From Bursaphelenchus xylophilus (Eukaryota; Nematoda; Chromadorea; Rhabditida; Aphelenchoididae), in the NCBI GenBank assembly GCA_904066235.2, contig CAJFCV020000003.1, positions 2,356,001-2,420,000 on the forward strand: a stretch of DNA of 64,000 bases, in the 5' to 3' direction. A model generated the notes under the pieces. That model was not told where the DNA came from. It worked only from the letters and a program-made list of their open reading frames with translations, and made no database searches. Below, in pieces: positions 1-64,000 of this stretch. Within the stretch, counting starts at the first letter, position 1. Each line of letters opens with the position of its first letter. Made by a program: the position numbers and the translations under genes.

Positions 1-3000
1 CATTGGCATTCCGTTTCATTCGAGGCTTCTCGGCTGTAAAAATACCAAATTTGTGAATTTTCTATCCAGATCCTTCACGCTTTCTTAGGGCACTCAGAAA
101 AACAAGATCTCAAGAAAAAAAAAACATTTTTATCAAATTTATATTTACAACAGGATACATCTTCACTTCGGGCGAGCTTTTTTGTCTAGTGAAATTTTTG
201 GCTTTCCGTTGTCTTGAACTCACTGGATGCGGTTTTTTGAATCGGAGCAGAACGGTCTTTCTTTCCCTTCTTTCCTTTCTCCGCTTTCTGAAAAGAAAAA
301 TGTTACATATTTTATTGAAACACTTTTTTTCGCAGCAAAAAACCTTGCACTGTGCCAAAAATTGATTTCCCATTGCAGTCATCATTTTTCGTTATGCATG
401 GTGCAAAAATTAAAATTGTATGCACGGTGAATCTCCATTCTTACCTTGTTGCTGTTACCATTTTTGGCTTTATTGAGGGTTAAATTTTCGTCTTCCGTGT
501 TCATGGCAATCTAAAAAGGCTCATATTTTAACCACATTACAAAAAATAGTTTAATTCTAATTGTACCGTGCCGAAAAATATTGTCTTCACAATGCACGTC
601 AATCCAAAATAGAAGAAAAAATTTCCCGCCCCTTTTTGGTGATTCGTTCAAGACGAAATGTCACTATCCGATAAAAAGCATTTTCTTATCTTTCTTCTTC
701 CTTTTAGAGAAAAAACAATTATTTCGGGCGAGAAAAAGTGCCGATAATTTCGCGACATTTCGTCTCACTTTTAAATCAATGAAAACGATACGAAGTTTCG
801 AAACGGTTCAGGAAATGCGCTGGATTGACGTGCAATGCAAAAAAAAATAGATAAAATGAAAATGCCTTTCTGCAAACTTGCTCTGTACAAAAAATTAAGT
901 TCCCATTGCACAGTACAGTCGTCATTTTTTGATCTGCACAGTGCAAAATAAAAAAAAAATCTTACCTTGTTGCTGTTACCATTTTCGTTCTTTTTGAGGG
1001 TTAAATTTTGGTCAATGGAAGTCGTGGCCATCTAAAAAAACTCGAATTTTTATCACATTTCAAAAAATATTTTAATTCTAACTAGACCATTTCAAAAATT
1101 TTTTACTGCACAGTGCAAATAAAAATAAAAAAAAAACTCCGTTTTGCTGTTAACGCTTCAAAAAACATTTTTCCCATTCAATCAGAAATATTTTCAGTTT
1201 CCTCCCTTACCTTGGACGACTTCTGATTCATCATGGAAGAGCGAGTTTCCGTCTTTGTCTTCACATCAACAGTACCACTTGCATTTTTCAAAGTTTCCGT
1301 CGACTTAAAAGGGCGCTGATTTTTCAAGTCTCTCTCTTTCTAAAAAACGCAGCGTCATTCTAGGACCAAAAACCAATTTCTTTACCTTATCTTGCCCTTC
1401 TCTGTAGACTAACGCACCTGAAACGGAAATCAGGAAGAGGAGGGCTAGCAAGACAAAAATCGAGCCAACACTGATGTAGACAGTGGAGTTTTTCGGTGGC
1501 ATCACCAATTCTTCGAAGCTAAAAAAAAGTTAATCATATTTCGGAAAAAGTTCCTTATTTTGGCCACAAAAATGTACTCCGCGAACTGCGCCCAAGCTTG
1601 GGCACTAAAGTTCGGAAAAAACGCTTCGACCTAGCTGGCACTGAATTACTATAATAGCTCTACAGTTTTAAGGTTACCTACGAAGGCGATGCCGACTCAT
1701 TTAGTTCTATACGGAGGCAATAAGTTTAGTTCCGGACAGTTTTCATCGTATAAAGTGTAAAATCACAGGCTGCAGCCGTTTTTGAAGGGTAAGATGGTAC
1801 GTAAAAAAGAAGGTACCTCACTAACTAAATCCCCTGTCCGGGCATTGACAACGATGAATTGAGCGTGCACGTTAAATGTGGGCTAATTCCGCCAGTTTCC
1901 GCAAAGTTATAAGTTGTGGCCAAAATAAGGAACTTTTACCCATGTTTCAAAACGGCTTAAAACTTCTTGCCCTGCTGTAAAATAACCTACTGCGCAGGCA
2001 AGCCTGTGGTGACAAAAGACACATTACTTGTACTTGGCTTGGCATTGGGATCAATTCTTGTTGGCGATACAGAAGAGGGTAGTTGAGTGGACGTTCGATT
2101 GGAGAACTTGGTTGTGGCGGTAGCCAAAGGATTCCTGTATCGCATAATAAAAAAAAATTGGCAAAAATTGCACTATGCAAAAAATGCAAAACTAATTTCG
2201 CACCGTGCAACAAAAAAAAACAAATAATTTTCGCCAAAAATCCGCATCTTGCGGTACAAGGATAACATTAAAAAACTTTTTTGACTACTGTAACAAAACC
2301 TACTCCACAGTCGACTTTGCACTACTAGGAGCAATTCTTGAGGGCGATACAGTAAAGGTTACTGTAGTAGACGTTAGGGTGTTGTTGGTCGTGTTTGTTG
2401 TGGTGGTGTTCTGAAAATACAGAACTTAAAATGTATGTTTTTTTTGCATTTTAATTTTTTTCTATTACACTCGTTCTGCGACAAATTTCGTACAGTGCAA
2501 AATTTAAAAATCAAAAATTTCTTGTCGCTGTTTTGGACAATGCCCACAAACTTACGGTAGAGGGTGCTGTAGTAGACGTTGGAGTGGTAGTCGTTGTTGT
2601 GGTTGTCTGAAAATAAAACTTACAGTTAAGAGTAAAAATGTCTTTTTTCTTTTTTTACTGGTCCTTCCGGAAAGCCGCCGGATTGGTTTCTGACGTTTGG
2701 ACTGTGCGAAAAAAGTCATGGTGCGAGCGACAGCCCAAAAAGCCAATTGCACAGTGCAAAAAGCAAAAATTGCACAGTGCAAAGAAAAGTTGTGTTCTTC
2801 GCACAGTGCGCGCCGCCGATTTTGGCCCGGCGACATTCCGGAAAGGCTGGTACTGCACTGCGCACTCAAAAAAAAAAAAAAAAAAAAAAAATCCTGTTCA
2901 AATGACAAAAAAAGTCCTGTCGGTTTTTTGAGCCCCGCCATAAACTTGCAGTAGAGGGTACTGTAGTTGACGTCGTGGTGGTGGTCGTTGTTGTTGTTGT

Positions 3001-4937
3001 TGTGGTTGTCTGAAAATAAAACGTAGCAAAATTTGAACTGTTTTTTCTGCACTGTGCAGTGAAAAAAATCCTGTGTCGCAGAGTAAAAAAATGAAAAAAG
3101 CATACTGTGGTAGTCATGGTCGTGGTCATGTTCGGTGGGGGAAAATTTTCAATTGAAAAGTAAAAAAATAAACAAAAAACATACTGTGAAAGTTGTAGTT
3201 GTAGTGGTAGTGGTGGTCGTAGTGGTGGTCGTTGTTCTTTTGGTGCCCTGAAAAAAAGCTTACAATTGCAGCAAAAAATTTTAATGCCAGCTTTTTGTTG
3301 CCTGCACAGTGCAACCAAAAAACTGTTTGCACGGTGCGGCTCGAAACTTTTCGTCTTTGCTTTTTGCACTGCGCAGTCAACAGGAAACTTTGACAAAAAA
3401 ATTTTTGCACGGTGCGGTTCAAAAAATCTCCAGGCCTTTCTACGCACCGTGCAATCAAAGAGTTCCACAATTTGGGCGATCAAAACATCGCGTCTGCACA
3501 GTGCAAAAAAATGCTCAAAAAACGATTTTTATTGCACTGTGCAAAAACAAATTTTCAAAGACTTGGAAATTTGCGCGCCTAACTTCTCGTTACACCATGC
3601 ATAAAAGAAAATAAAAATCATTTCCACCCACCGACGGCGGTGAGTAGACAAAACGGATGTAAAAGTAGGCATGTGCGTCGTAATTTTGCCACAGCGGTGA
3701 TCTGCATTTCCTTCCGAGCCATGCGAACTTGGACTAAAAGATTGTTAAAATTCTCAAAATTATTTAAATTTTAGTGTAAAATATTGTAAAAACAAATTTA
3801 CAAGAGGATAAATGACGTCTATCTTGGCTCTGGCATAAATTCCATGTGGTTTGTCGCATTTTCCTTGGGGCCCATGAAGCGGACTTTTTATCTGAAAAAA
3901 TAAAAAAAATGAATAAAAAAGTTGTTTTCGTAATAAAAAATTATTGCAAGAAAATAAAAAAAAATACAAAAAAACAAAAAAAGTAAAAAAAAATGAAAAA
4001 AATAAAAAAATAATAAAAAAATAAAAAAAAATAAAAAAAATAAAGTCCAAATATATAAAAAATATAAAAAAAAAATAAAAAATATACAAAAATTTCTTCA
4101 ATTTCCTCACCGTTTCCAAATGCTCAGCCGCCAGCAGACACTCATCGCCCTTCAAATAGTACAGAACGCCCACATCCTGCATGTAGAAGTAGTTTTTGAT
4201 GTCGTCGTAAAATGGAATCAAATAAACCTTTTCTATGTCGGAATCACGTATCCAGCGTCGCCTAAGGAACCGTGGAGTTAATTCGTAATGAACCCAATAA
4301 AACACAAAGTCTCTGACCATGAAGACTCTTTGAAGAAAGTCTTCGTATCCCATATGAATTTCGATTTCTTCAGACGTGTTCAGCCACTGGATTGCTTTAC
4401 GCTGCGTGCTGCAAAACGCAAATTAGCAGTCTGTACGTTTTAGGAAAGCCTATTCTAAACTTGTCCCAAGTTTCATCAAATTCTGAGTGTTGCACTTGGA
4501 GTAAAATGCAATAAAAAAAAGAAAGGAAATTTTTCCTTAATACTTACCCGTGATAGTTGCGCAAAAGTCCAATTTGTTGAAAATCCGTAGCGAAGAATGC
4601 CCAAAGATCATTCTGATACCTTGTGGGGACAAATTTAGAGTCGCGCTGAGGACGCAAAGGAAGAGGTGCGCTGAAATCGCCGTCAAATTTCATGCCGAAT
4701 TTCAGAAACAAGTCCTCACCTCGCTGCATCGATTTGCTCTGTTTCTAGGTCGAACGTGTAATTGTGGAGATACGGAACCTCGGCGTGTACGAATCCAAAA
4801 ATAAAGCCACGTGTTGCGTTCTGGGGAAAGTATTCGGCCGCCTCAGGACAATCGAACAGCAAATTTTTAAAGGTGCTCTCATTCAACTGAGCCAAACTCT
4901 CCGAAATTGCGGCGAAGACGAGAATTGGGAGCTTCAT
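1..4937 (-). CDS. Receptor-like membrane protein A (ectodomain, Thr-rich stalk, TM, cytoplasmic tail; 3' part outside window)
   Basis: No known family name recognised. Coding exons read on the minus strand: 4937-4720, 4670-4548, 4408-4111, 3891-3802, 3733-3632, a Thr-rich mini-exon array (about 3247-2070), then 1518-1386, 1339-1211, 1031-966, 510-445, 287-224 and 33-1. The start, MKLPILVFAAISESLAQ, is a good signal peptide. The ectodomain shares exon sizes and phases with B, C and D downstream (first exon 218 nt in A and B; FAWL exon 102 nt in A and C) and the conserved features GDEC, C-x(4)-HGIY and FAWLGRKC. Exon 1518-1386 encodes one membrane helix (about 24 residues beginning VYISVGSIFVLL). 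The tail is Lys/Ser/Thr-rich. By analogy with B and C a kinase-like domain should follow left of base 1, but this is inferred, not seen. The join between the stalk array and the TM exon is uncertain. Confidence 0.75.
445..1031 (-). repeat. Duplicated cytoplasmic exon pair in gene A
   Basis: Exons 1031-966 and 510-445 are both 66 nt, both phase 0, and encode near-identical 22-mers (DQNLTLKKNENGNSNK and DENLTLNKAKNGNSNK). The surrounding intron sequence is also alike, including the donor GTAAGA and a downstream palindrome. This looks like a recent tandem exon duplication. Confidence 0.75.
1543..1940. mobile_element. Small terminal-inverted-repeat element, copy 1
   Basis: The ends match in inverted orientation: AAGTTCCTTATTTTGGCCAC at the left and GTGGCCAAAATAAGGAACTT at the right. 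It lies in the intron between the stalk exons and the TM exon of gene A. An inverted partial copy with the same internal sequence (GCCCAAGC-TGGGC block, 'gacctagctggcactgaatt') is found at about 57860-58022. No coding capacity, so a MITE-like non-autonomous element is likely. Confidence 0.65.
2070..3247 (-). repeat. Array of Thr-rich mini-exons (mucin-like stalk of gene A)
   Basis: At least four short exons, 3247-3185, 3009-2950, 2606-2556 and 2410-2351 (63, 60, 51 and 60 nt, phase 0), encode runs of Thr with PTSTTAPST-type ends. Two degraded relatives lie near 3140-3106 (no clear AG acceptor) and 2135-2063 (frame unclear). Each is separated by an intron carrying the 11-bp palindrome. The 3009-2950 exon ends at a GC donor (ACT|GCAAGT) where its sister exon has ACC|GTAAGT. 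The last exon of gene D (62008-61964) is homologous to these cassettes. Confidence 0.65.
2165..3545. repeat. 11-bp palindrome cluster (introns of A stalk)
   Basis: More than a dozen YGCACNGTGCR palindromes, for example near 2744, 2773, 3303, 3403, 3447, 3495 and 3534, separated by AT-rich spacers between the Thr-rich mini-exons. A poly-A run at 2870-2890 lies inside. Confidence 0.85.
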
Positions 4938-5745: not shown

Positions 5746-5759
5746 TTAGTGAGGTGTGA

Positions 5760-6540: not shown

Positions 6541-6683
6541 AACAGTCAGCGTAAGGGTTTTTGTTTGAGTCTTGTTTAGATTCCTGCGGTAACCAGCACA
6601 AAAAAATCAACCTTTTGCAGATTCTGCCTACAGTAACAAGAAATTGCGTTGACTAGAGATGCCTATTCGTAATTGCCACAGGA

Positions 6684-8526: not shown

Positions 8527-8529
8527 ATT

Positions 8530-17322: not shown

Positions 17323-18132
17323 TATTGCAGCGTGCAAATTTCGAAAGTTTTGCGTTCGCACCGTGCGACGAACAATTTTGCACTTTGCACCGTGCAAATT
17401 TCCGAAATTGAATTTGCACAGTGCGGAGAAATCGAAATTGTTTTTTGCACAGTGCGGAGAAATTGAGATTGTTTTTTTGCACCGTGCAAACACCTTTTTG
17501 AAATCGAACTGCACTGTGCAACAAAAAAAAAAAATCGTTTATTGCACCGTGCAAATTGTTTTCGAATTGAAAGTTTATTTTGCACAGTGCATTAGCGACA
17601 AATCATCGCTTTTTCTCTTGCACGTTGCGTAAAATCAATTTCGATTCACCGCACGGTGCAAAAATTTGGATGCACTGTGCGGATTTCATTTCAACAAAAA
17701 TTTGGATTTGCACAGTGCGTCCGCGACAAATTTACTGCACAGTGCAGTTTCCAAATTCAAAATTTATTTTTGCACAGTGCATTAGCGACAAATCGTCGCT
17801 TTTTGTTTTCCACGGTGCGTAATCTCAATTTCGATTCTCCGCACGGTGCAAAAGTTTGAATGCACTGTGCGGATTTCATTTCAACAAAATTTTGGGTTTG
17901 CACAGTGCACAAGCGACAAATTTGCTGCACAGTGCAGAAAAATTCAATTTTTGAACCTTGCACAGTGCAAAAAATTCTATTTTTGAACTTGCGAAAAGCC
18001 GCACAGTGCAAAAATCATTTTTTGGGCCCCTCGCACTGTGCAAACAAATATTTTCCAGTTCCGCACTGTGCAAGCCCCCTTCATTAGCGTATGCACAGTG
18101 CAAACGGTCTTTTCCAATTCCATGCACAGTGC
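17323..18132. repeat. 11-bp palindrome cluster
   Basis: About 25-30 YGCACNGTGCR copies spaced roughly 20-35 bp apart. Part is a tandem duplication: the block with 'gtgcattagcgacaaatc' and 'gcggatttcatttcaacaaaa' occurs at about 17580-17715 and 17775-17900. Confidence 0.9.
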
Positions 18133-18459: not shown

Positions 18460-19206
18460 ATGCACCGTGCAGACGGAATTAATTGACGTCGCACCCTGCG
18501 ACGGAAACGATTTTGCACTGTGCAACGGGAATTGGGGTGGATTGCACTGTGCGAATGCTTCGGAACGTTGAAAATGTTCAAAATGACGTCATTGCACTGT
18601 GCAAAGCTCAATTCTTTGTTTTTGCACTGTGCAAGAAGACTATTTTTGATTTTTCGCACAGTGCAGTCAAAAAATGATTGCACTGTGCAAGGTGTCGCGA
18701 CAGCCAATCAAAAATGAAATCTGTTTGTCGCACTGTGCAAATCTCGAATTTCTTATTTTTGCACTGTGCGGTCAAAAAATGACTGCACTGTGCAGTCAAA
18801 AAATTTCTGCACTGTGCAAGGTGTTGCGACAGCCAAGGAAAAATGAAATCTGTTTGTCGCACCGTGCAAATCTCGAATTTCTTATTCTGCACTGTGCAAT
18901 CAAAAAAATGCCCGCACTGTGCGATGGAAAAGAGCGATTGCACTGTGCAGGGTGTCGCGACAGCCAAGGAAAAATGAAACCTGTTTGTCGCACCGTGCAA
19001 TTTTTATACTCCTAATTTTTGCACTGTGCAGTCCGAAAATGTCTGCACAGTGCGGTCAAAAAATGTCTGCACAGTGCAAGGTGTCGCGACAGCCAAGGAA
19101 AAACCAAATCTGTTTGTCGCACCGTGCAAATTTCAAATTGCTTATTTCTGCACTGTGCAGTCAAAAAACTGTCGCAATGTGCATCCGAAACTTCACTGCA
19201 CCGTGC
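18460..19206. repeat. Palindrome cluster in about 130-bp tandem units
   Basis: About 30 palindromes. The unit 'gtgtcgcgacagcca..aaaaatgaaa.ctgtttgtcgca' recurs at about 18690, 18820, 18950 and 19080. It also contains a second palindrome, TGTCGCGACA. Confidence 0.9.
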
Positions 19207-20977: not shown

Positions 20978-21503
20978 ATTATGCACGGTGCAGGTGAAAT
21001 TAGAAATATCGCACCGTGCACACAAACTTTTGGACCTTCGCACTGTGCCAGGAATTATGTTTGGTGTTTATGCACTGTGCAATTTTCATTTTTTCCTTTT
21101 GCACGGTGCGATTATTTTCCCAACCACTTGCACTGTGCAGGCGCGACAAATTTGGCGATCTTTTGCACTGTGCAGTGAGCGTTTTTTCTATTTCGCACAG
21201 TGCAGTCAACACTTTTTTTATTTTGCACAGTGCAGTTTTCATTTTTTCCTGTCGCGCGGTGCAGTTATTAAGCGCGACAAAATTTGGCGATCTTTTGCAC
21301 TGTGCAGTGAACATTCCTTTTTTCGCACAGTGCAATTTTCATTTTTCTCTTTCGCACAGTGCAATTATAAAGCGACAAAATTTGGCGATCTTTCGCACAG
21401 TGCAGAGAACATTTCTTTTATTTCGCACAGTGCAATTTTCATTTTTTTCCCTTTTGCACAGTGCAGTAATTTTCTCAACCCTTTGCACTGTGCGGAGCTT
21501 ACT
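20978..21503. repeat. Palindrome cluster with 'gcgacaaaatttggcgatc' units
   Basis: About 20 palindromes. The spacer 'gcgacaaa(a)tttggcgatctt' recurs near 21141, 21272 and 21370. The 234-codon frame through this block is a repeat artefact. Confidence 0.9.
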
Positions 21504-23120: not shown

Positions 23121-23300
23121 TGCATGCACTGTGCGAAAATCCCGAAAATTTTCGCACAGTGCAGTTCCAAATCGAAAAAATGCTTTTGCACTGTGCGAAG
23201 TTTCATTTTCATGTTGATTGCACGGTGCAGAGGTTGTCGCAAGGAACCTTTTGTTTTGCACGGTGCGAAATAAAATTTTTGCTTTTTGCACAGTGCAATT
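23121..23300. repeat. Small palindrome cluster
   Basis: Six YGCACNGTGCR copies in 180 bp just upstream of the NCoR-like start codon. Confidence 0.85.
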
Positions 23301-38600: not shown

Positions 38601-41600
38601 ACCCGTGCCAGCTGCTCTTTTTCGACTAATTAACTGTTGGGAAATACAGCCAATGTTCAGCACGATTTCAACGAAATACCATCCCTAATATTGGTATTCT
38701 CCGATCCTTTGCTTTTTGCACCGTGCGCCGAGATTTAGTTTTTCGGCTGCACAGTGCAAAAGGGTTTTGGTGTGGATTGCACAGTGCGAAAAGGATCGAG
38801 TTTTTGACGCACGGTGCGATTGAAGTTTTTGTTTTATAATTTGCACGGTGCAAAAATATGAGGTTTCAGAAATGCACAGTGCAATGGGAATTTTTCTTGT
38901 CGCGATAAAGATTGCACAGTGCAAAAAAGCTTTTGGTTTGGATTGCACAGTGCGAAAAGGATCGAGTTTTGGCCGCACGGTGCAAAGAAGCTTTTGTTTT
39001 GTAATTTGCACAGTGCAGAAATCTGAGGTTCAAAAAAATGCACAGTGCAATGGGAGTTTTTGTTGTCGCGAGAAAAATTGCACAGTGCAAAAAAGCTTTT
39101 GGTTCTGGGCGCACAGTGCGATGAAAACTTTAGTTTTTTAATTTGCACAGTGCATAAATATGACTTTCAAAAATGCACAGTGCAATGGGAATTTTTCTTG
39201 TCGCGAGAAAAATTGCACAGTGCAAAATTTTCCTCTTGTTTTTTCTGCGCACAGTGCAAAAACTCTTCTTCTTTTTTCGCCTGCACAGTGCAGAAGGCTT
39301 TGTTTTTTGATTGCACAGTGCGGAAAGGATCGAGTTTTGGCCGCACGGTGCGATGAAAACTTTCGTTTTGTAATTTGCACTGTGCAAAAATCTGAGTTTC
39401 AAAAAGTGCACAGTGCAATGGGAATTTTTCTTGTCGCGACATAGATTGCACAGTGCAAAATTTTGAACTTTTTTGTGCACGGTGCAAAAAGTCCTCTTCC
39501 TTTTCCACTGCACAGTGCGGAAGACTTTGTTTTTTGATTGCACAGTGCGGAAATGATTGATTTTTGGCGCACGGTGCGATGGAACCTTTTATTTTGCAAT
39601 TTTCACAGTGCAAAAATTTTAGGTTCACAAAATGCACAGTGCAATGAGAATTTTTGTTGTCGCGATAAAGATTGCACAGTGCGAAAATTTTTGTCTTTTT
39701 TGCGCTCCGCACAGTGCAAAAATCAGAGTTTCAAAAAGTGCACAGTGCAATGGGAACTTTTCTTGTCGCGATATATTGCACGGTGCAAAAATTCCTCTTC
39801 TTTTTTTTGACTGCACTGTGCAGTCGAAAAGATTGAATTTTCGCACCGTGCATGAATGAAAAGTTGGTTTATTCCAGTAAATATGGCCCAAATTCGACGG
39901 GCTTTGTCCCAAAAACTGAATATCAACCATAATCCCGGATTTGCGGCACCGTTTCTGACTGTGTTTTGGTATTTTCTCCCGGATTTTAGCAGCTTTTTGC
40001 TTGTTTATCCGCGGATTAAGTAATTAAAGCGAGAATTGACTAAAAAATAGAGCGTGTTTTGGAAAATTAAGCCTTAATTGGGCCGGCGACGGTGTTTTTG
40101 ACGGATTTAGAGAAAATTACGGTAATTTGCGAAATTTGCATAAATTTGCATATTATTTAAAGTGGCAAATTTTGGAATTATTTTGATTTAGAAATACGCC
40201 CTGAGGGGTTTATTGGAATTTTTAATGATTTTTTCGCAGAATTTTTGCAATTTTTTTTTGCGAAATTTCAAAAAAATTTTAAATTTAAATTCAAATTTTT
40301 GGTGTTTCAAATTCCCGGAATGATTTCTGATGCCCTCAATTTGCCTCGTGCCCGTTTCTGAAAACAATTTTTGTTTTTTGGACACTTTGGCCGCTTGTTT
40401 TTCCGCACCGTGCAAATTCAAACATCACTTCGGGTCGAATGACTCCTTGTTTTTTGTTGTTTTGGTCTCGAACGTGTGTCTAAAATGCATTTCGTTACAA
40501 ATTCCAGGCAGTAATCATCCAAAATGATCCACTGAAAGGTCGAAAATTTTATTTTTTTGATCAAAAATTTTGACTTTTTTTTTTTTTGAGATTTTGGAGA
40601 TATAAAGGGCAATTCGGGATAAACGGATTGATGAAAAGTGTTGACTTAGCTGTAGCCTTGATTTTCGGTCTTTGTCGGACGTGTTTACAAAGATTTATTT
40701 TAATTTTTTTTCGTTCTGATGTCTAAAATAATATCGAAATATGCAAATTACGGAGGTATTAGTCACTCTTTCTCGGTTTTAATAAAGTTCCACCAGAAAT
40801 AGCCGAGTATCATCCGCGTATTTGGCAGATATGAACGGAAATCCCACCCATTTCCGCTAAAAATCCCTTTTTCCGCAAAAACTTTTGAATGTTTTCGGCA
40901 AGCGTTGACGCAGATTGACGGAATTTTTGTCATTTGCGACGTCTTCTATCGTATTTTTCATATTTTTCGTTATCTCGGCTGTTTTCAGACCGCCAAAGAC
41001 ATGGTCAAATACTACTATGCGACCAAATCGGAGATGAAATACAAGATGTTCTTCCCGAAGAACAAGAAAAAACCCAACAAATTGGCCAAACCCATACCGA
41101 TGCCGGAGTTCCGCGAGATGTTCGACCATCTGATGGACACCTGCAGTAAGTTTTGCACGATTTTTGATCGTTTTGGACTGGTTTTGGCACGATTTTTGAT
41201 CGTTTTGGAGTGGTTTTGGACTGCACTGTGCAGCACTTCTCAAGTTTGAGAACTGCACAGTGCGTTTTGAAAAGTTCCTCCGATTGCACTGTGCGAAATT
41301 TGACATTTGTGTTTTTTGCACAGTGCAATATTTTGTTTTTGGAAACGCACAGTGCAAAACGAAAGTTTATGTCGCGGCGACAACGAGAAAGCGACCATTG
41401 CACAGTGCGTTTTGAAAAGTTCCTCCGATTGCACTGTGCGAAGTTTTCCATTTGTTTTTTTTGCACAGTGCAATTGTTTTTTGATCTGTTTTTTTGCACA
41501 GTGCAACGAAGCTTTTGTTTTTTGTCATGCACTGTGCAGCGGTTCTCAAGTTAGAGGATTGCACAGTGCGTTTTGAAAAGTTAGTCCGATTGCACTGTGC

Positions 41601-44600
41601 GAAATTTGTCGCACAGTGCAATGTTTTTCTTTGTAAACGCACAGTGCAAAATGAAAGTTCATGTCGCTGCGACTGAACGGAAAGCACTGCACTGTGCAAC
41701 GAAGCTTTTGTTTTTTTTGCACTGCACTGTGCAGCGGTTCACTGCATTCCGAATTATTTTTGCCGCCGACCGGCGTCCGAAAAAATGAAAAAATGAGATA
41801 CGCCTCTTACATTTTTGCCAATATCTCGCTAGCCTCGAAGTGTAGCGTGAATCTGAAAATTGTGTTTCAAAGCTGACACATTTGTCCTTCAGAATATATT
41901 AATTTTGTGATGATACTTATTATGTACGACAAGGAAACCGTTGCTGAAAAATGGCAAATTTCAACATTCAATGCCAGAAAAATGTACTTTCTAAGTGCCA
42001 GATTGCAAAATTATGGGCCTCATTGTGTACAGAATCTTGAACACTATAAGATATAACAATTTCAGGCATTTTCTGGCCCGATTCGCAGAGTTATACCCGA
42101 AAAACTGCAATTTTGGCCTTCTTATTGAGCTATCTGCACTTTAAAAGTACATACAAAAAAACATTTCTATGATTTTTGTTGCCCAGGTTGTGATGGACCA
42201 CTGTGCAAAATCTCAGCTTTCCAGGACTCCTCCGAAAAAAGTTATAACGGTTACAATATGGGACCCTCGTATGCCCAATATTTTGTAAAATACAGTACAC
42301 CATTGTAAAAAATAGCTCTATATGGCCTACGTAAACTTACTCGAAACCTGAACACTGTTTCTCAGATTTTTCCGCACGAGGGACACGATTTCAAGTTTTC
42401 GCTATACTAAAGGGAAAACAGTGAAAAGTTGGGGACATAGCTGGGAAATTTTTATATGTAGTTGACCGTGTAATTGCGATAAAATTTTTTACCCCAACCA
42501 ACGCGACAGCAGCAATAGGAATTCCATCATACAAAGCCATCTTGCACCGTAGTTTACCGTATTTTACAAAATATTGGGCATACAAGGGTCACATATTGTA
42601 ACCGTTATAACTTTTTTCGGAGGAGTCCTGGAAAGCTGAGATTTTGCACAGTGGTCCATCACAACCTGGGCAACAAAAATCATAGAAATGTTTTTTTGTA
42701 TGTACTTTTAAAGTGCAGATAGCTCAATAAGAAGCCCAAAATTGCAGTTTTTCGGTTATAACTCTGCGAATCGGGCCAGAAAATGTCTGAAATTGTTTTA
42801 TCTTATAGTATTCAAGATGCTGTATCCAATGAAGCCCATAATTTTGTGATTTGGCACTTAGAAAGTACATTTTTCTGGCATTGAATGTTGAAATTTGTCA
42901 TTTTTCAGCAATGGTTTCCTTGTCGTACATAATAAGTATCATTACAAAATTAATATATTCTGAAGGGCAAATGTGTCAGCTTGTAAACACAATTTTCAGA
43001 TTCGCGTTACACTTCGAGGCTAGCGAGATATTGGCAAAAATGTAAGAGGCAAATCTCATTTTTTCATTTTTTCGGACGCCGGTCGGCGGCAAAAATAATT
43101 CGGAATGCTGTGCGGTTCCGAAATTCGAGGACTGCACGGTGCGTTTTGAAAGTTTCTCTGAGTGCACTGTGCGAAATTTTCGAACTGTTTTTTTTTTGCA
43201 CAGTGCAATGTTTTTTTGGGAAAACGCACAGTGCAAAACGAAAGTTCATGTCGCAGCGACAACGGAAAGCACTGCACTGTGCAACGACACTTTCGTTTTT
43301 TTTTGATCACTGCACAGTGCAGAAAGGAAAAAGCTTTTTCTGCACGGTGCACTGATTTCGCGATTTTTTCCCCTTGCACAGTGCAGAGAGAAAAGAGAAG
43401 AAAAAATTCTTGCGAAAAAATTGGTTTTTTTTTTGCACAGTGCGTGACAAAGACAATTTTTTGCTCTGCACAGTGCATAAACTTTTGTAAAAATTTTTTC
43501 TTGAAAACCGCAGCGAACTAATCCCTTTTCCAAATTCCAGCAAAACGCGACATTTTCACGCACATTTGTTGTGTAATTTGCGATGGAGACATGAAAATCT
43601 TCACGGCTGTTCCGTCCATGTCCATGGAGAAGGAACGGCTGTACAAGAAGATCTTGAAAGAGCAGGAATTGCGACAAAAACTGCCAATCTGCACGAAATG
43701 CTTTGGAGCCTTCAAGAAGACAGCGATGTAAGTTAATTTTTAAAATTTTTTTATGGAAATTTTATTTTTCTTCACCAAGAAATCTCGTTTTAGCCGATGC
43801 CCGGTGGGAACTTGTCCCGGCGGAAAGCGAAAACAGAAACCATCACGAGCACCACCCCCAGAATTCTACGACCAACCCCTGGAGAATCAGTGTGCGATCG
43901 TGAGGAAGCTCCGATTCCATCCCGCAGCACCAAAAATTTGCTCCAATTGTTATAAACGGATTCAACAGGAAATCGAAAATGTAAGTGAAAATGGGAAATT
44001 GTAGGTGAGGGTGGGTGTAGGAGTGTGATAAATGATAACTACAAGTTTGTTGGACCCTTATTCGAGAGATTTTGAGAGTTGAAACAGAATGCCAAAAAAT
44101 TAGAATGTGGAAATTGGAGGGGATAAATAGGTGTAGGAGGGTGTAGAAGCGCATATAAAGCTGTTTTTTCACGTTGTAATGGTTATTTCGGCAGTTTTTG
44201 CACTTTTTTGGGACTTGCAACAGAATGCCAAAAAATTAAAATATGCAAATTGGAGGGAATTAATAAGTGTATGAGGCTGACAAATAAGTGTAGGTGGCTG
44301 TAGAAGCACATATAAAGCTGTTTTTCACTTTGTAATGGCTATTTCAGCAGTTTGCGAGCAGTTTTGGGGCTTGCAACAGAATGCCAAACCGGCGGGAAAT
44401 TTAGAAATTTAAAATATTGTAGGCGAGGGTGGATTGTTGGGACCTCTCAGAAGATTAGAACAAGTTTTAAGAGGCTGGTTTCCTGTTTTTCGACGGTTTT
44501 TGCCACTTGCAACAGAATGCAAAGACGGCGGAGAATTCGGAAATCCGAAGCATTTTGTTGATATTTTTTGGAAAAATAAATCTCTATGAGAAAATTTCAG

Positions 44601-47136: not shown

Positions 47137-47275
47137 ACTTATCATTCAGAAAAAGTTTTGACCTCGAAGCGCCGCACTGTGCAAAAACTTCGAAACGAAA
47201 AAACAATAAAAATGCACGGTGCAGACATTTCGTCGCAAAAATTTTTCTTTTGCACCGTGCGAAAAATCCGAAACA

Positions 47276-48505
47276 TTGCACGGTGCACTGCGGGTCGGGT
47301 CAAGTTTTTTTCATGGGGTGGTCAAGTCTTTCCCCTAATATTATTTTTTCCCCGAAATTCAGACTGTTATATGGGAGGTTAATCAAGGTAAATCTGGTCA
47401 GTTCTTGTTGATTATTTCAAGAACAAGTCTTATTCTATTTTTAGAAATCAAATTTGATTGAATTACGGTGTGGGTTTGCCTCAATTTTTAGCATTCTTTG
47501 GGGGTATGTATTCTATACCTAAATGATCGATTGTGAGACAGTTTCAAGTCTGATTTACGATATCGTTTCCATTTCACCTTCGGACGTACGCCACCTGTCC
47601 AATAAAGGTAAGTAACTGTGAATCTGGTAGTCCGTTTTCTAGTAATTAAAGATTTTGTATATTATACTAGGTACTTTTGAAGATTTTTGTTGAGATTTGC
47701 CAAGTTTTAGGCCTGGATTAGATTATTTAGCGTAATATTGGTCTCTAGTGCCTATAAAAACGTAAGTGGACAGGTTTCTCCTTCTCTTTTAGACTTTTTC
47801 TTTGTGTCCAAAGTTGATGCAGATTTTAGGTAGAGATGAAATTCAACGCCCAAACTATGCGGAATTTTCATAAAAATCAAAGAAAATACTTTCGAGGATC
47901 ATCAAGCGAAGCAAAAATGTGTTTGAGACCAATCTAGCGTTTTTTTCAGGCGGATGTTATACATGATCCCTGTAACGTATAACGTCTGGATCACATCTGT
48001 GAAGACCTCTGGTGATGGAAAACGTGGTTAGGACAGTAAAATTAATATGTTGGACGTGATTTTGAGGGAAAACCAGGCAAATCCCGTACAAAATTTTCTG
48101 AATAACCTAGAATAATATACAAAATCTTTAATTACTAAAAAACGGACTACCAGATTCACAGTTACTTACCTTTATTGGACAGGTGGCGTACGTCCGAAGG
48201 TGAAATGGAAACGATATCGTAAATCAGACTTGAAACTGTCTCACAATTGATCATTTAGGTATAGAATACATACCCCCAAAGAATGCTAAAAATTGAGGCA
48301 AACCCACACCGTAATTCAATCAAATTTGATTTCTAAAAATAGAATAAGACTTGTTCTTGAAATAATCAACAAGAACTGACCAGATTTACCTTGATTAACC
48401 TCCGATATAACAGTCTGAATTTCGGGAAAAAAATAATATTAGGGGAAAGACTTGACCACCACATGAAAAAAACTTGACCCGACCCGCAGTGCGGTGCACA
48501 CTTTT
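47276..48505. mobile_element. Foldback element, about 1.2 kb inverted repeat
   Basis: Left end near 47285 (GTGCACTGCGGGTCGGGTCA) and right end near 48496 are reverse complements; arms of about 500-600 bp meet near 47890. Palindrome clusters flank both sides (47170-47290 and 48490-48872). It lies between the convergent NCoR-like and CCCH genes. Confidence 0.88.
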
Positions 48506-48872
48506 TCGTCAACAAAAATTTTATTTTGCACTGTGCGAAAATTTCGAAAGGATAAAAAAATAAAAATGAATTGCACGGTGCAAATCTTTTCATCGTAAAT
48601 ATTTCTGTTTTGCACTGTGCGAAAATTTCGAAGCGACAAAACAATAAAAATGAACTGCACGGTGCACAACCTTCTCGTCGCAAAAATTTCTGTTTTGCAC
48701 TGTGCGAAAATTTCGAAGCGACAAAACAATAAAAATGAACTGCACGGTGCGCAATCTTTTCGCCATAAAAATTTCTGTTTTGCACCGACCAAACTTCCGC
48801 ACAGTGCAGTTCATCTCGGCCAAACTTGCTTCGCACTGTGCAAAAAACCAAAAAAACCAACTGCACTGTGCA
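48490..48872. repeat. Palindrome cluster
   Basis: About a dozen palindromes in roughly 88-bp repeats with the spacer 'gaaaatttcgaagcgacaaaacaataaaaatgaa' recurring three times. Confidence 0.9.
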
Positions 48873-52152: not shown

Positions 52153-55100
52153 TTAAGAAGGGTTAGATTTCTCCTTGCTATTCTGCAAAAAGAGCTGTTT
52201 GATCTTTCGATAGGAAATCTTCTTCATGTCGGGCAGTTCCACGATCAACTCATGCACTTGGCGGAGCAATTCTCTAGCTTTCTTATTTTCCACGTGCTTT
52301 TTTAGATGCTTTTCGACATTTGTTTTATTCAGGAGGTCACGTTTGAGCCGGTAAATCTTGGTTTTCTAAAAACAAAGGCTTAAATGTGTCCAAAAAGGCA
52401 AATTCAATCTTTGAGATTCGATTTTGGGAAACTAGAAGTCCTAAAACACCGGCTTACATCAGTTTCATCCTTCCAAATCAAAGCGTTTTGATTGAAAATC
52501 CAAAGAATAACAAAAAACCACGAGATCATGTCGTCGAAATGACTCCTCTCCAACTTTAGATGGCTGGCCGGACTGGCAAAGATTAAACTTCCAAAGAATG
52601 GCACGTTTTTTCTCGGAGTCGGGAGGGGGATTCGGGCCAGTCCAAGATTAGTGACGAAGATTTTTGCGCCATCAAATTCGTAGCGAAAACTTGACGGTTT
52701 GATGTCTCGATGGACAATATTGGATACTTGAAGGTCTTCCATGCATTTAAAAGTCTCGGCGACTAGTTTTAGCTTCTCTCCCGAGCTTAAAGTACCACTG
52801 AGAACTTGTTTTTCGATCGATGGGCCGAGCTGAAAATAATTGTTTTTTGATGGGCAAAGTAATATAAATTGACGGTTTAGATGGGAAATTTTGTAGAGTT
52901 CGTTAGTTTTCTAGTGTCTTTGGACCCTCTAGGTTTTCATCATGATATATTGGTCACCACAGTACGAAATTTCCCCGTTTTCAAAGTCAGGTGACATTTT
53001 ATACGAAAAAGTTTGGTTGACTAAAAAATCACTTTTTGATGGTTAAAATAATATAAATAGTTGGCAGTATGCCGTTAAAAGTGGTATATTTATTTGTTTC
53101 AACCGATCCGGGCTACAGTGGTGGACCTGATCCAATGGCAAAAAACGTTCCATTTTGCATCCGGAAAGTATCAAAAATGTAGCAAAATACCTCCCTCTCC
53201 AAGTGAACAAACTCCGGTTTGAAGGCGCGCGTTTAAAATTTGAGTTTTTTTTCACTTGGAGCGGGAGGTATTTTGCCACATTTTTGATACTTCCGGATGC
53301 AGAATGGTACGTTTTTTGCCACTGGATCAGGTCCGCCACTGTATATCTGCCTAAAATGCTCGACCTAACTCAAAACCCCTTACTTTACCTTTTTCACCAC
53401 CATCAATCGTATATTGAATTGATCCAAATGCGCGGTACTGATAAATTCTTGAATGGTCCCGTTTTTCTGATACTTTTGCGCTTGTCTCATGACCGCGGCG
53501 ATCGCCTGAAACGCAATATCACTCATTCTAAGCCGCTCTTACATCAATCCGATTCAATTTGCATCCCATATCCTCGTATTGCACTGTGCAGGGCTCTTCG
53601 TTCAAATTCAAATCGAATTCTCCAAACGTTGTTGTGAAAATTCTAGCCGGCAAGGTGACTCCGACCTTCTTGAAGGTCGTGAAGAAGCCTTCGTCCGGTT
53701 TCGCCAGGCCATCCAGGGGTTTGTTGGGACGCTCCGCCTCGAGGCCTTCGACCTCATTCTTCTCGAATATTTTGTTGAGCTCGTCGGAATTGAGAAGTTC
53801 GACGACTGTGTCCTGAAATGATAATTTTTGGTTGAATACTCTATTCTAAATGCAATTCGACAAAAGTTTCCGGGAAAAAATAAAATGTGTTGCACAGTGC
53901 AAAAATTTTTGGCGGAGAAAAATTCCGCACGGTGCAATGAAAATTTTTCTTTCGTTGCACTGTGCGGTCAAAGGGGATGTTCCATCTGCACAGTGCAATT
54001 CAGGTGCCTTTCAGAGAAGGACTTGCACGGTGCAATAGAACTTTCTGTTCCGTTGCACTGTGCAATCGAACTTTCGGTTCCATCGCACTGTGCAATCGAA
54101 CTTTTTGTTCCACTGCACAGTGCAATCGAACTTTTGGTTCCATTGCACTGTGCAATCGAAGTTTCGGTTCCATTGCACAGTGCAATTGAACTTTCTGTTC
54201 CGTTGCACTGTGCAATCGAACTTTTTGTTCCACTGCACAGTGCAATCGAACTTTCGGTTCCATCGCACAGTGCAATCGAAGTTTCGGTTCCATCGCACTG
54301 TGCAATCGAAGTTTCGGTTCCATCGCACTGTGCAATCGAAGTTTCGGTTCCATTGCACAGTGCAACCGAACTTTTGGTTCCATCGCACTGTGCGAAAATT
54401 TGAATTCAAAAACAATCCGCACAGTGCAATTGAAACTCGTTTTTCTCCGCACAGTGCGAGGAACGCGATTGTCAACCGCACGGTGTAAACATTCCCCTTT
54501 TTTGAATAGCTTTTTCCGCACAGTGCAAAAACTTGCTTACCACTGGAATAGCTCTGGAGACAACGGTCGTAGTATCCTTTGTCATATTCATTGGGGAAAA
54601 CGCAGTTTTGACTACAGTAAGACGAGATTCCACCGTATTCCCATCTAGCTCAGTTCTTTCAGTTACTGTCATCATCTAAATTTATATTATTTCATGAACT
54701 TTTGGCTCAATTTACATATGTTTTCTCCTTCTGCGTTTTCTTGAACTGATAATACAAAAATAATCCGAGCAATGCTGTAATGGAAATGACAAGGATGCCA
54801 TTTGCAACAGCCAGGGAGGTTATAATTCGAAGTTCACTTGGTCTTTCCAATCCCGCCGGAATGTATGGATCGGAATCTCCGGTGTTTTCTTGCTAAAATT
54901 AGGACAGATCAACGCTAATTGCAGTACAAAAAGTTTGTAAAAAGAGTCGAGTTCAATATAATTAAACATTTTTTTTTGATTTTTTTTGTATTTTTTTGCA
55001 CGTACAGTCTGGACCCAGTGGCAAAAAAATGTTCCATTTTGTATTCAGGAAGTATAAAAAAGCAGCAAAATACCTCCCTCTCCAAGTGAAAAAACTCCTT

Positions 55101-57282
55101 TTTGAAGAGCGGCTTTCCCTCACAAAAAGAGCAGGGCCCCGCTCTTTTTGCCCCGCGGGGGCGCTTTTGAAATCGGAGTTTTTTAACTTAGAGAGGGAGG
55201 TATTTTGCTGCTTTTTTGATACTTCCTGGATACAAAATGGAACATTTTTTTGCCACTGAATCAAGTCCGCCACTGTACGTGCAAAAAAAAAATTCCGCAC
55301 TGTGCAAAAGACAAGAATGACTCTTTTATGCACCGTGCGGACAAATGGGGAAGCAATTTTCTTCTATTTGCACTGTGCAGTGACAAAAAATTCGCACGGT
55401 GCGGGAAAATTTTGCTTTCTCGCACAGTGCAAAAGGAGTGAATAAAGTTTTACTTGCACCGTGCGGTAAACATTGACAGTCAGAAAAAAATCGCACAGTG
55501 CAAAGCCAAAAAAAAGATAGAGAAAGGTCCGCACTGTGCAAAAAAATTTCTTTCTCGCACATTGCAAAAGAAATAAAAAAAATGTCAACTCGCACCGTGC
55601 AGTAAAAACTGACAGTTAGAAAAAGAAACTGCACAGTGCAAAACAAAAAAAAATAGAAAAAAGTCCGCACTGGGCAAAAAAATTCTTTTTCGCACCGTGC
55701 AGAAGAAATTTTTTTTTGCACTGTGCAATCGAAATTCAATATGAAAATGTTGTAGAATAGCTTACTTTGAACCGAAAATAAGCCGCAGAGTAATTCTGGA
55801 GATTTGTCCACTCTTGTTGAGCACAATCCTTGGTGAGATACGCAAAAGAAACCGAAAAAAATATCAAAAAAGCTGACAATTTGGACTTACAAAATCATAA
55901 ACTGCATCGGAAGGGCCTGGCTGGAAAATCCCCTCATTTGGCGTACAGGGAATTAGGTCGCTGTCCTTTACCTCTTTCTAAAAAATTTTTTTTGGTAATG
56001 CCAATATCAAAATTAAAGAAAAAATTTTTTTTTATCCTTACGAGTGTTGAGTAATCAAAAATTTGATTGCATTTCTCGGCGGTAAACACATATAACACGT
56101 CCAAATGCCTTTGATATGAGAATCTAACTCCATTCGAGTCAAAATTCCCGACAAATTGGGTCTTATTTTCACCTGGAAACTGCCGTAAAACCGATGTTTG
56201 GAGGATGAAATCGGTGAAATCCGGGGTGATTACAATATTATCCGGTCGAATATTGTCTTCCACCCCCAAAGACATGTCATCAAGCGCGATTTTTGAGCTG
56301 AAAAATAAATTACCAAAGTTTTGCGGGGCGCACAGTGCAGTCGAAAAAATTTGATGATGCACAGTGCAAAAAAATCGCGACAAAAAATCAAATCGCCCAG
56401 TGCAGAGGAATGCACAGGAATAATGCACTGTGCAGCCAAACAAATATTTAATCTGCACAGTGCACAAATCTATTGTATACCATACGGAACGGTATACAAT
56501 AGATTATCCGCACGGTGCAAAATTCTCAGTATTTGTCCCGAATTTTTCATTGCACTTTGCAGTCGAAAAAATGGAGCTTTTTTGCACTGTGCGGTCAAAA
56601 AATCAAACTTTTTTGCACTGTGCAATCAAAAAATGAAACTTCTTTTTCACTGTGCAGTAAAAATCAAGGTTTTCTTGCACTGTGCAGTCAAAAAAAGCAA
56701 ACTGTTTGCACTGTGCAGTCTTAAAATCGGTCTCTTTTGCACTGTGCAATCAAAAAACCAGACTTTTTTGCCATGGCCAATCAAAAAATAAAGGTTTTTT
56801 TGCACTATGCAAACAAAAAATTATGCCTTTTTGCACTGTGCAGTGAAAAAATCAAACTTTTTTTGCACTGTGCAGTCAAAAAAATGACTTTTTAAATTTT
56901 GATACCCATTTCCGTTTTGGTAAATGACTCCAATTCTTTGCAATCTAGCATTCCAAACCACATGTTGCGGTGAGCCAGGGATCAGTTCTCTACTGCAATA
57001 TGAAAGTTTATATTGCACGTGATAAAAAAGTCATCAAAAAGTTGAAAAATCAATAAATATTTGCCTTTTCTCCTGAATAAGGCTACTCGTCAAAGAAATT
57101 GTATAAGTGATCGCATAAAGAGCCCCATCAATCTTTTCGTAGGTATAAAGAGCCGCTTCGTTGGTTCCTTCGGGCAAAAACGCGGCCAGTTGACAGTTCT
57201 TGTACAGTGAAAGAAATGCCTGAGGCATTGTTTGGGCTGTCGCTGACATCAGAAGAACAAAGAGTCTCAAAAATGGAGACAT
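52153..57282 (-). CDS. Receptor pseudokinase B: ectodomain, TM, CK1/TTBK-like kinase domain, about 672 aa
   Basis: Exons: 57282-57065, 56992-56906, 56297-56042, 55977-55891, about 55852 (or 55828)-55766, 54892-54716, 54675-54541, 53812-53543, 53505-53389, 52829-52458 and 52365-52153. The start MSPFLRLFVLLMSATAQ is a signal peptide. The ectodomain shares AEKC, C-x(4)-EGIF and FAYLTKDC with A, C and D. Exon 54892-54716 holds the membrane helix (within IITSLAVANGILVISITALL). Exons 270, 117 and 372 nt long match gene C exactly and encode the kinase-like domain: LGPSIEKQVLSG, IVHRDIKPSSF and NLGLARI, then SHFDDMISW as in the CK1 helix. The DFG Asp is Asn, the VAIK-type Lys seems replaced (CTVQYED) and no glycine loop is clear, so catalysis is unlikely. 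Two splice sites are unusual (GC donor at 57064, CG where AG is expected at 55853). Confidence 0.82.
53114..53343. mobile_element. TACAGTGG...CCACTGTA hairpin element, copy 1
   Basis: About 100-bp arms run inward from TACAGTGGTGGACCTGATCC; the whole 230-bp block folds on itself. TA-flanked CAGTGGCGGAC-type ends suggest a Tc1/mariner-related MITE. Lies in the gene B intron between the last N-lobe-like exon and the HRD exon. Confidence 0.8.
53580..53590. repeat. 11-bp palindrome inside a gene B exon
   Basis: TGCACTGTGCA encodes Cys-Thr-Val-Gln in the sense of gene B. The aligned codons of gene C (60474-60484) hold the same palindrome. Confidence 0.9.
53890..54535. repeat. 30-bp palindrome satellite in gene B intron
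   Basis: From about 54050 to 54385 the 30-bp unit 'gcac(t/a)gtgcaatcgaa(c/g)ttt(c/t)ggttccat' is repeated about 11-12 times almost perfectly, flanked by looser palindrome copies. The spacer itself contains GAACTTTCGGTTC, a second dyad. Open frames of up to 191 codons cross it on both strands because 30 is a multiple of three. Confidence 0.95.
55003..55277. mobile_element. TACAGT...CCACTGTA hairpin element, copy 2
   Basis: Arms match copy 1 at 53114-53343 ('ttccattttg.at.c.ggaagtat.aaaaa.g.agcaaaatacctccctctccaagtg'). A different central part (GCAGGGCCCCGC, CCCCGCGGGGG) also forms hairpins. Lies in another intron of gene B. Confidence 0.8.
55293..55722. repeat. Palindrome cluster in gene B intron
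   Basis: About 16 palindromes with two copies of a roughly 125-bp block ('gacagt.agaaaaa...tgcaaa.c.aaaaaa.atagaaaa'). Confidence 0.9.
56331..56885. repeat. Palindrome cluster in gene B intron
   Basis: About 20 palindromes at about 27-30 bp spacing with the spacer 'tcaaaaaa..aaactttttt'. Also a perfect hairpin, 'tctattgtataccatacgg' with its inverse, at about 56468-56505. Confidence 0.9.
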
Positions 57283-61727: not shown

Positions 61728-61765
61728 TTGTAGGATAAATAATACCAAGGTTCTGGTTGAAGGAA

Positions 61766-61771
61766 AATAAA
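61766..61771 (+). terminator. Poly(A) signal of gene C
   Basis: AATAAA 39 bases after the stop codon; gene D ends on the other strand at 61964. Confidence 0.55.
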
Positions 61772-61963
61772 AGATTCCGTATTCAGTAACGGGAATATTG
61801 AGGGAAAAGGTATCCAAAAAGGGTTTGCATTCCATCATTTTTTGATTTTCGCAAGTTGTTTGATGACGTCATCATTCTTCAGAGCTAAAAGAAGAGGACC
61901 GCATGTTGAAGAGAAAAGTTCATTTAGTAAAAATTTAGATGTTCGAGAGTTTATATGTATAAT

Positions 61964-64000
61964 TTAAGACGTTGGAATGGTAGTGGTGGCAGCTGCTGTT
62001 GCGACAGTCTGAAAATAAAATTTATTGTATGTCATCAAAAATTTGAATCACAACTTTTCCTTGTGCCAAAAAAACTCCTTTGTCGCACAGCAAAAAAGTT
62101 TTTTAAATACCGCCTTTTCGCACTGTGCAAATTTCAAAAAAACTTACCGTAGTTGCAATAGGCCGCGAAATGAATTGAATCTTTGCATAAGCATGGCTCC
62201 AGTAGTTGCTATAGGTTTGATTTGAGCAGTTCCTTGTCAGATATGCGAATATCGTCTGAAGAAAAAAGTTTTCGTCCCACTAGTTTAGTGATGATAAGAC
62301 TTACCATACTGTAAACTGTATCAAGTTTGCTTGGATTAAACATTCCTTCGTCGGTGTCGCAGAGAGAGAAACTATTCTTTTCCAACCTCTAAAAAAAATT
62401 TTTTTTGAAAAAAATATTCGAAATTTTGGGTGAAATTTGACAAAAAAAAAAATAAATTTTTTTTTCGCAAAACTGCTTACCATTGTCAACAACTCCCCGA
62501 ATTCCAGGCACTCTGTCTCCGACAAATAATAAACCGGTCCATTCGGCTCAATGAATTGTAAAAATCCGGCGATTTCTCCGGCTTCGCCGAGAACCTCGAT
62601 GCTTCCATTCAAATCAGCCTTCCAACGAACAAATTTGGGTTGTCCTCTAACTTGTAACACCGCGTAGACAAAGTCTTTTCGCACAAATCCATACAATTCG
62701 CCGTAGTTTAGTGAGTCCAGCTTGATCGTGCGAGTTGGGTCATCGCTCCAGACAAAGTGCATACTGAAATGGGAAATAAATAAAAAATAAAAAAAAACTC
62801 TTTTATTTCCTTACTCGTCTTTTTTGAAAGTAATAAGTCCAACCTTGCGCATATCATGGCTCCAGATTCCTTGTGCCTCAAATGACTTTGGCAATTGTTG
62901 CCTAGAAAAATTATTGAAACAGAGAGGTCTGAAAATCAGTGGTGGGCTAGAATTTGACCCTGATTTTTTTGTCTTATAGTCGTTCCAGAAAGTGCGTCGA
63001 TTTTTTCGGCATTTTTTCGCACCGCACTGTGCATGTTGCGCTATACTTTTCGAAACATTTTGTATCAGTCTGTGGGGAAAATAACGGCGGATCGTCGCGC
63101 CTTGGAATCGCGCATCATCGATTTGCGACTGAAAGCCGCGGCTAGGGATTTGGTGCGCGATAGCGGCGAGGCGAGACATTTTGCTGCGACAATCCGCCGT
63201 TATTTTCCCGACAGACTGATACTGTGAAATTTCTTTTCGCGCTCCGCAAAAAAGTGTTTTGCGCAAGGTGCGGCCCATAAAAAAGTCTGCAAACTTTATG
63301 AAAATGCTAGTAGTCCGTTCGTAAAGTCGCTGCAATGATTTTCGCGACATGAACTGTGCAAAAAATCCCTAAAAATCCCTTATGGGCGACAACCCAAAGA
63401 AGTCTATCGGTCTGTCGGGAAAATAACGGCGGATCGTCGCGCCTCGGAGTCGCTCATCATCGCTTTGCGACTACAAGCCGCGACTTGGGATTTGGTGCGC
63501 GATAGCGGCGAGGCGAAACATTTTGCTGCGACGATCCGCCGTTATTTTTCCGACAGACTGATAATGCACGGTACAAAAAGCCAAAAATTGCACGGTGAAA
63601 AGTGGACTTTTGTTTTCGCACAGTGCATGTCGCCGAAATCGCTCCAGCGACTAACCAGTGCGAAAACAAAAGTTCAGTTTGCACTGTGCAATTTTCATCG
63701 TTTTGCACCGTGCAAAAGGCTTTTTCGGGCTGTCGCTCGCACCCTGACTTTTCCTGCACAGTGCATGTCGCAAAAATGACTCCAGCGACTTTACAAAAGG
63801 ACCAGTACCATCACTGTCAATGTTTACAACATCTATGTCCAAAAATATGTTTGGACAACCGGAATTCAAACCCCACTCACTTCGAAACGGTCTCAACACT
63901 CCCATTTTCGAAGTCAACACCGTACTCAACGGCATAAAGGCCCGTCTCATTGTTCCGAACAAACTCCAAAGACCAAATTTTTGCCCCGGTGGCTGTTTCC
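61964..64000 (-). CDS. Receptor paralogue D, ectodomain only (5' end outside window)
   Basis: Exons: 64000-63881 (partial), 62901-62815, 62763-62481, 62388-62305, 62255-62148 and 62008-61964. Phases and sizes match B and C (87/87, 283/292, 84/84, 108/102 nt). The segments read KIWSLEFV, GIWSHDMRKVG, FVRWKADLNGSIEVLG, ETECLEF, LCDTDEGMF and FAYLTRNC, equivalent to the other three ectodomains. The last exon encodes TVATAAATTTIPTS and stops. It aligns with the Thr-rich stalk cassette of gene A, where PTS continues. No membrane helix or kinase domain can follow, because gene C's 3' end begins 230 bp further on. The predicted product is a secreted or loosely attached ectodomain. The signal peptide exon should lie beyond base 64000. 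Confidence 0.78.
63063..63222. mobile_element. Hairpin element GTATCAGTCTG...CAGACTGATAC, copy 1
   Basis: 160-bp block with inverted ends TATCAGTCTGTGGGGAAAAT / ATTTTCCCGACAGACTGATA; interior has 'gcggatcgtcgcgcc'. Non-coding MITE in an intron of gene D. Confidence 0.8.
63404..63562. mobile_element. Hairpin element, copy 2
   Basis: Same family as the copy at 63063-63222, in the same orientation (ends TATCGGTCTGTCGGGAAAAT / CGACAGACTGATA). About 85% or more similar by eye, so either a local duplication or two insertions. Confidence 0.8.

Follow-up and report, generated by a model that had tools for sequence, protein, structure and literature searches.

Arrays of an 11-bp palindromic word in Bursaphelenchus xylophilus as candidate protein-binding minisatellites

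The centromeres of Caenorhabditis elegans are not defined by sequence. In Meloidogyne, CenH3 is described as associating with short tandem-repeat arrays that carry a conserved 19-bp box (accessible part of PMC9673304), and the available sections of two papers describe 11 satellites with a 17-mer resembling the CENP-B box (PMC3694981, PMC9673304), with a conserved box located at monomer junctions and a proposed transposition-related mechanism (PMC3694981). The pairing centres of C. elegans, as far as PMC9071541 describes them in its accessible part, are located at a single end of every chromosome and involve four zinc-finger proteins for different chromosomes. The present work concerns a 64,000-nucleotide stretch of Bursaphelenchus xylophilus (contig CAJFCV020000003.1, positions 2,356,001 to 2,420,000; this whole stretch is called the window below), in which an 11-bp palindrome, YGCACNGTGCR, is repeated in dense arrays.

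An intact palindromic word

The original prediction had reported more than 200 clustered copies of the palindrome and had considered it a genome-scale motif. Both statements hold: the window contains 228 copies of GCACNGTGC, 208 of them grouped in 15 arrays with four or more copies, compared to a mean of 0.43 and a maximum of 4 in 100 dinucleotide shuffles, and the whole genome (78.25 Mb, i.e. six contigs of 12-15 Mb and two of ~15 kb) carries 39,685 copies of YGCACNGTGCR compared to only 44 of the control, the same pattern read backwards. With one mismatch allowed, 12,316 further sites are gained genome-wide, versus 2,363 for the reversed control. Among the other free-centre 9-bp dyads of the window, only the homopolymers AAAA (n = 111) and TTTT (n = 50) precede TTTC (n = 13). 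The position counts in the window yield YYGCACNGTGCRR, in which eight bases are fixed, the centre is free and the flanking Y and R are followed outward by weaker Y/R positions, with a conservation that is strong over 11 positions and weak to 13. The predicted free centre (A in 93 sites, T in 80, G in 32 and C in 23) and the predicted symmetry of the outer bases were both found, the latter in 226 of the 228 sites (T/A 112, T/G 52, C/A 51 and C/G 11); the remaining two have C on the right.

Statistics on arrays were obtained either from the window and 20 loci of 10 kb (264 kb in all; half-site gaps, counts of exact and mismatched copies, looser divergence set) or from the window and 23 loci no shorter than 5 kb (the GCGACA word, strict divergence set, spacer similarity, regularity, complementarity of neighbours), three of these 23 (L030-L032) having been chosen because array matches lay there. 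As had been claimed, the 11-mer stays intact in arrays, where 391 exact copies were counted versus 26 with one mismatch (21 sources scored). Divergence was then measured in 24 aligned pairs of repeats of at least 100 nt that are 72-97% identical and include four or more motifs when both members are counted together. The fixed bases differ at 49 of 2,120 positions (2.3%), the centre at 73 of 264 (28%), the outer bases at 62 of 522 and the spacers at 1,015 of 5,789 (17.5%). A looser set gave 102 of 4,057, 193 of 505, 142 of 990 and 1,949 of 9,315, respectively. Mutations had the same time to accumulate at the centre as at the adjacent bases, so that a recent origin does not by itself account for the unbroken words, and these figures support the proposal that selection or a copying bias would act on the motif.

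The geometry of the sites bears on what would recognize them. Half-sites one base apart are found 399 times in the 264 kb, whereas gaps of 0, 2, 3, 4, 5 and 6 bases are found 0, 1, 1, 2, 0 and 6 times. Neighbouring sites are at least 19 bp and most commonly 29-32 bp apart; periods near 10 obtain the top score for helical phasing (0.29), with a peak that is not sharp. Genome-wide, the outer pairs are T..A in 20,282 sites, C..G in 2,471 and mixed in 16,932 (by subtraction), compared to 20,825, 3,014 and 15,846 under independence; matched pairs are thus in deficit and mixed pairs in excess, and no covariation of paired outer bases was detected across the genome. Furthermore, 116 of 406 pairs of adjacent motifs (33 arrays) have complementary centres, versus 112.5 +/- 7.6 after permutation within arrays, and complementary outer bases number 434 in the same pairs, versus 437.5 +/- 9.7. 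Since the outer bases do not covary and neighbours show no complementarity, the motif acts as double-stranded DNA and not as RNA. The symmetric site announced in the original prediction is therefore sustained, and its plainest reading would be a homodimer contacting GCAC half-sites one base apart.

Spacers, inserted elements and other repeats

The spacers were said to differ between arrays, which our comparison bears out. A comparison of the 28 arrays that have five or more motifs (378 pairs, motifs masked, E<0.01) revealed spacer similarity in eight pairs, of which seven lie within one locus and one is between loci (L022/L030, E=0.001); five shuffled trials gave none. Spacers are thus mostly unrelated between loci. 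Twenty of the 23 arrays that have six motifs or more offered sufficient spacer pairs for scoring, and three of them (beginning at window positions 23126, 26313 and 43134) combine regular spacing (coefficient of variation 0.11-0.28) with the lack of any spacer pair alike above the null. Their simplest history would be that of old tandem arrays whose spacers drifted and whose words stayed. Ordinary tandem repeats are also present in young arrays, and isolated motif copies exist outside arrays. The array at 53892-54526 includes a 30-bp repeat (54023-54393) with 0 differences at 104 fixed bases (one pair scored).

Array spacers are also rich in a second word, GCGACA (79 copies versus 6.2 expected), with four occurrences as TGTCGCGACA and two as TGTCGC-N-GCGACA; examples are located at window positions 18693, 39432, 41370 and 43249. 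Presumably, it resembles the site of human ZBED1. In the locus L015 (4115-4979; G000:C2, ~10.004 Mb), six motifs are 172, 172, 174, 172 and 174 bp apart, and none of the 21 spacer pairs (two flanks included) beats the 95th percentile of shuffles, the best being matched by 6 of 100 shuffles. Motifs ~168-174 bp apart, a nucleosome-like length, were also noticed at window positions 936-1108, in L033 (786-1129) and in L034 (252-1793), the latter two loci having been chosen for that ~172-bp distance. A genome-wide excess of motif triples 171-175 bp apart was not found (259 versus 319 at 140-144 bp), this control being imperfect since distances of 141-144 bp also occur in L034. In the sampled loci, the 9-mer TAAAATACG exceeds expectation ~13.6-fold, with 84 occurrences of which L009 accounts for 25; besides L009, it was seen for example in L015, L031 and the window, and also near some isolated motifs. 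TTGTCCCCA is ~14-fold over its Markov expectation in the same loci. On G000:C1, around 99-108 kb (L004-L008), a ~2.36-kb tandem repeat carries motifs at fixed spacings of 130 and 347 bp.

The arrays of the window are listed in Table 1. All those named in the original prediction exist, and one of six copies (23126-23296) was missing from its list. The arrays that it placed at 41.2-43.5 and 47.2-48.9 kb are present too, but each actually consists of two arrays parted by an inserted inverted-repeat element. Both elements have CACTGC-type ends and 5-bp duplications and are located within arrays. The family of the element at 47286-48491 is recent, with 90-100% identity among the 40 scored out of 71 candidate matches, and near-identical copies are present on each of the six chromosomes. 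Both ends are at the expected places in 18 of the 21 copies examined (window copy included), and 17 of these 18 two-ended copies are flanked by a target duplication, which measures 5 bp in 16 copies and was scored as 7 bp in one. Three of the 17 target-duplicated copies lie within a motif (0.09 expected from its share of the genome) and one more lies within an array, an apparent preference that is confounded because this family has G+C-rich targets. The elements at 41740 and 47286 were inserted into arrays; they are neither the source of the arrays nor part of the array system. An origin of the arrays from foldback elements with motif tails was also considered and is ruled out at these two places by the boundaries and the target duplications.

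Several arrays of the window adjoin long inverted repeats, including those at 26736, 54991 and 63063. The first one (26736-30817) has arms that share 98.8% identity along 1,136 bp, a second palindrome nested at 28081-29604 and motif copies within ~10 bp of both outer ends. A further palindromic element (24848-25792) has arms made of tandem repeats of a 17-bp unit of the GGGGACAAAA type. Comparison of 10 open reading frames with Pfam gave two matches, both under the Pfam cut-off, and Rfam gave no match at the gathering score.

Table 1. Motif arrays and inserted elements of the window
Feature	Position	Strand	Remarks
Motif array, 6 copies	3304..3542	.	
Motif array, 23 copies	17358..18132	.	partly a 190-bp repeat
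Motif array, 22 copies	18462..19206	.	129-bp higher-order repeat
Motif array, 16 copies	20983..21493	.	
Motif array, 6 copies	23126..23296	.	spacing regular; spacer similarity not above null
Motif array, 13 copies	26313..26734	.	spacing regular (median 31); spacer similarity not above null
Motif array, 35 copies	38577..39851	.	
Motif array, 16 copies	41223..41732	.	left of element inserted at 41740
Inverted-repeat transposon	41740..43112	.	inside an array; CGGTT both sides
Motif array, 10 copies	43134..43476	.	right of element inserted at 41740
Motif array, 4 copies	47174..47286	.	last copy split by element inserted at 47286
Inverted-repeat transposon	47286..48491	.	inside a motif; target duplication CGGTG both sides
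Motif array, 9 copies	48528..48871	.	right of element inserted at 47286
Motif array, 20 copies	53892..54526	.	
Motif array, 12 copies	55297..55726	.	
Motif array, 12 copies	56330..56873	.	
Motif array, 4 copies	63618..63764	.	

Chromosomal distribution and candidate role

Three samples show that motif sites favour chromosome arms. A rare exact variant of the motif (71 sites in all) is present on each of the six large contigs (C1-C6) with only nine sites in the middle third; after 50-kb binning, its 55 remaining sites are distributed as 17 in the left third, seven in the middle and 31 in the right. Among 18 preset loci of 10 kb, the 12 outer ones contain 109 motifs and the six middle ones contain two. 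Searches with two arrays of the window (best 40 of 73 and best 40 of 115 candidates) led to 62 distinct 50-kb loci, none of them in a middle third, this sample being biased toward arrays resembling the two queries. In the two small contigs, the initial 10 kb contain 0 and 60 motifs; one small contig, C7, starts with TTAGGC-type telomere repeats. At the start of C5 there are three exact matches to BxITSF, a primer of a real-time PCR assay that gave a signal with B. xylophilus and with none of the other species it was tried on (PMC3823978), as would be expected of B. xylophilus or a close relative.

A chromosome-scale protein-binding role, already suggested in the original prediction, is the leading reading of these sequence data. 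More precisely, the YGCACNGTGCR arrays may be motif-anchored minisatellites whose word would be the recognition site of a candidate, probably homodimeric, DNA-binding protein with a chromosome-structural role. We give this tentative reading, in which both the protein and its role are conjectural, a probability of roughly 0.47. The arrays would arise by short tandem duplication of the DNA surrounding a word; their spacers would then drift while the words would be held by purifying selection or by binding-dependent maintenance, and the protein-coated arrays could act in the chromosome structure of the arms, i.e. in heterochromatin or nuclear-envelope anchoring, in homologue pairing or as holocentric kinetochore sites. 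A more ambitious version, which appears rather unlikely to us, is a one-word addressing system on the arms of all six chromosomes: ~40,000 homodimer sites of 11 bp would keep their letters and spacing (~30 bp, and ~172 bp at a few loci) while the intervening DNA drifts, and a single coating protein would specify the chromatin of the arms, their pairing or their kinetochore sites.

Several points weigh against a role of this kind. The binding protein of the 11-mer is a prediction only, and individual selection on ~40,000 sites would be demanding in population-genetic terms. Arm enrichment is general for nematode repeats and carries little information on function; moreover, four of the 12 outer 10-kb loci are devoid of the motif and one locus provides 53 of their 109 motifs. 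The low divergence of the motif is also somewhat exaggerated by local alignment, which prefers motif matches, and the strict divergence set includes 213 gap positions on motif bases (751 on spacer bases), which we attribute to whole missing units.

The main rival, possible though doubtful, is that the arrays are selfish minisatellites: a transposase-like or recombinase activity would recognize the palindrome and multiply the DNA around it, so that copies with a broken word would stop amplifying and fade. The arrays are indeed short and scattered, with locus-specific fillers, the GCGACA word could be part of such machinery, and the Meloidogyne box at monomer junctions, with its proposed mechanism, offers a parallel (PMC3694981, as far as its accessible part goes). 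However, words are intact in arrays whose spacer similarity is wholly lost, even if these arrays show no sign of recent amplification, and the enzyme is hypothetical. Copying of a more ordinary kind, in which the arrays would be debris of a single transposon or satellite family, had been named with the original prediction as the outcome that would overturn it. It could account for the long inverted repeats adjoining several arrays and for the tandem repeats of young arrays; the insertion evidence and the rarity of spacer similarity between loci (one of 378 array pairs) make it extremely improbable, as does the presence of the 47286-48491 element mostly elsewhere, without arrays aboard, among the 21 copies examined.

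The other rivals concern what the word would do. Ordinary transcription-factor sites in clustered gene regulatory elements would explain a palindrome of the homodimer type, clusters of sites and isolated copies, but the number of sites and their arm preference would be unusual for gene control. We hold this to be improbable and, because of site number, arm preference and array form, would favour a chromosome-structural role. Promoters of small RNAs, comparable to the Ruby word of C. elegans type I PIWI-interacting RNAs (piRNAs), where a fixed word stands beside unrelated sequence, would fit a fixed word in AT-rich surroundings with thousands of clustered copies. They are very unlikely: in the accessible part of PMC9203780, the upstream word of type I loci is given as CTGTTTCA, which differs from the palindromic word found here, piRNAs are reported to be lost outside clade V, and the 21-22U RNAs of Strongyloides ratti yielded no upstream word. 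Lastly, the palindromes could be hairpins of RNA or of a single strand kept by base pairing, or could have been perfected via template switching. The arrays do fold well as RNA (z of -3.7, -10.0, -2.0 and -6.7 in four stretches), which is expected because a palindrome is repeated; a hairpin would favour matched outer pairs, which are in deficit genome-wide, and neighbour complementarity is at the permuted level. Both RNA hairpins and template-switch palindromes were rejected on these counts, and we see almost no chance for them. If, as the protein-binding reading would have it, a protein holds the word at tens of thousands of places, the word would provide a sequence handle on arm marking, pairing or segregation, a problem that is difficult to address in C. 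elegans. Furthermore, because its arrays differ in age, a single genome reveals the bases that a satellite has to retain.

Comparison with described systems

None of the titles and abstracts listed by literature searches, including those made with its letters, describes the motif, which is weak evidence of absence since most subscription papers were outside reach. The gypsy insulator also groups short sites, with about a dozen copies of the Su(Hw) core parted by AT-rich spacers at roughly similar spacing; it belongs to one fly element family and its core is not palindromic. As for the HIM-8 word of C. elegans, it would have CAGTGCA in common with the right half of the motif; none of the papers listed prints this word, and the likeness was not used here.

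The pairing centres of C. elegans (HIM-8, ZIM-1, ZIM-2 and ZIM-3) likewise consist of arrays of a short word, bound in meiosis by C2H2 proteins. Equivalence to these centres, with which the original prediction drew a comparison, is nevertheless not supported in detail: as far as they are described in the accessible part of PMC9071541, these centres differ in their 12-base word between chromosomes and lie at one chromosome end, whereas the same palindromic word is found here on each of the six large contigs and in the left as well as the right third. The sequence for elimination of Oscheius tipulae is also a short palindromic nematode word with a chromosomal role; according to the available part of PMC13370393, it is tied to elimination sites at chromosome ends, whereas the present word occurs in tens of thousands of mostly interstitial copies. 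The CENP-B box has 17 bp in the accessible account of PMC9673304, a length that the present conservation, strong over 11 positions and weak to 13, does not reach.

The Meloidogyne satellites, as they appear in the accessible parts of PMC3694981 and PMC9673304, differ from the present arrays in their word, which is here an 11-bp palindrome with a free centre and ~40,000 copies. The organization of a conserved box within divergent short arrays is shared in form only. Like the arrays of B. xylophilus, however, these satellites of a clade IV plant parasite are short arrays of divergent tandem repeats that keep one conserved short word, and they may be regarded as the nearest precedent seen.

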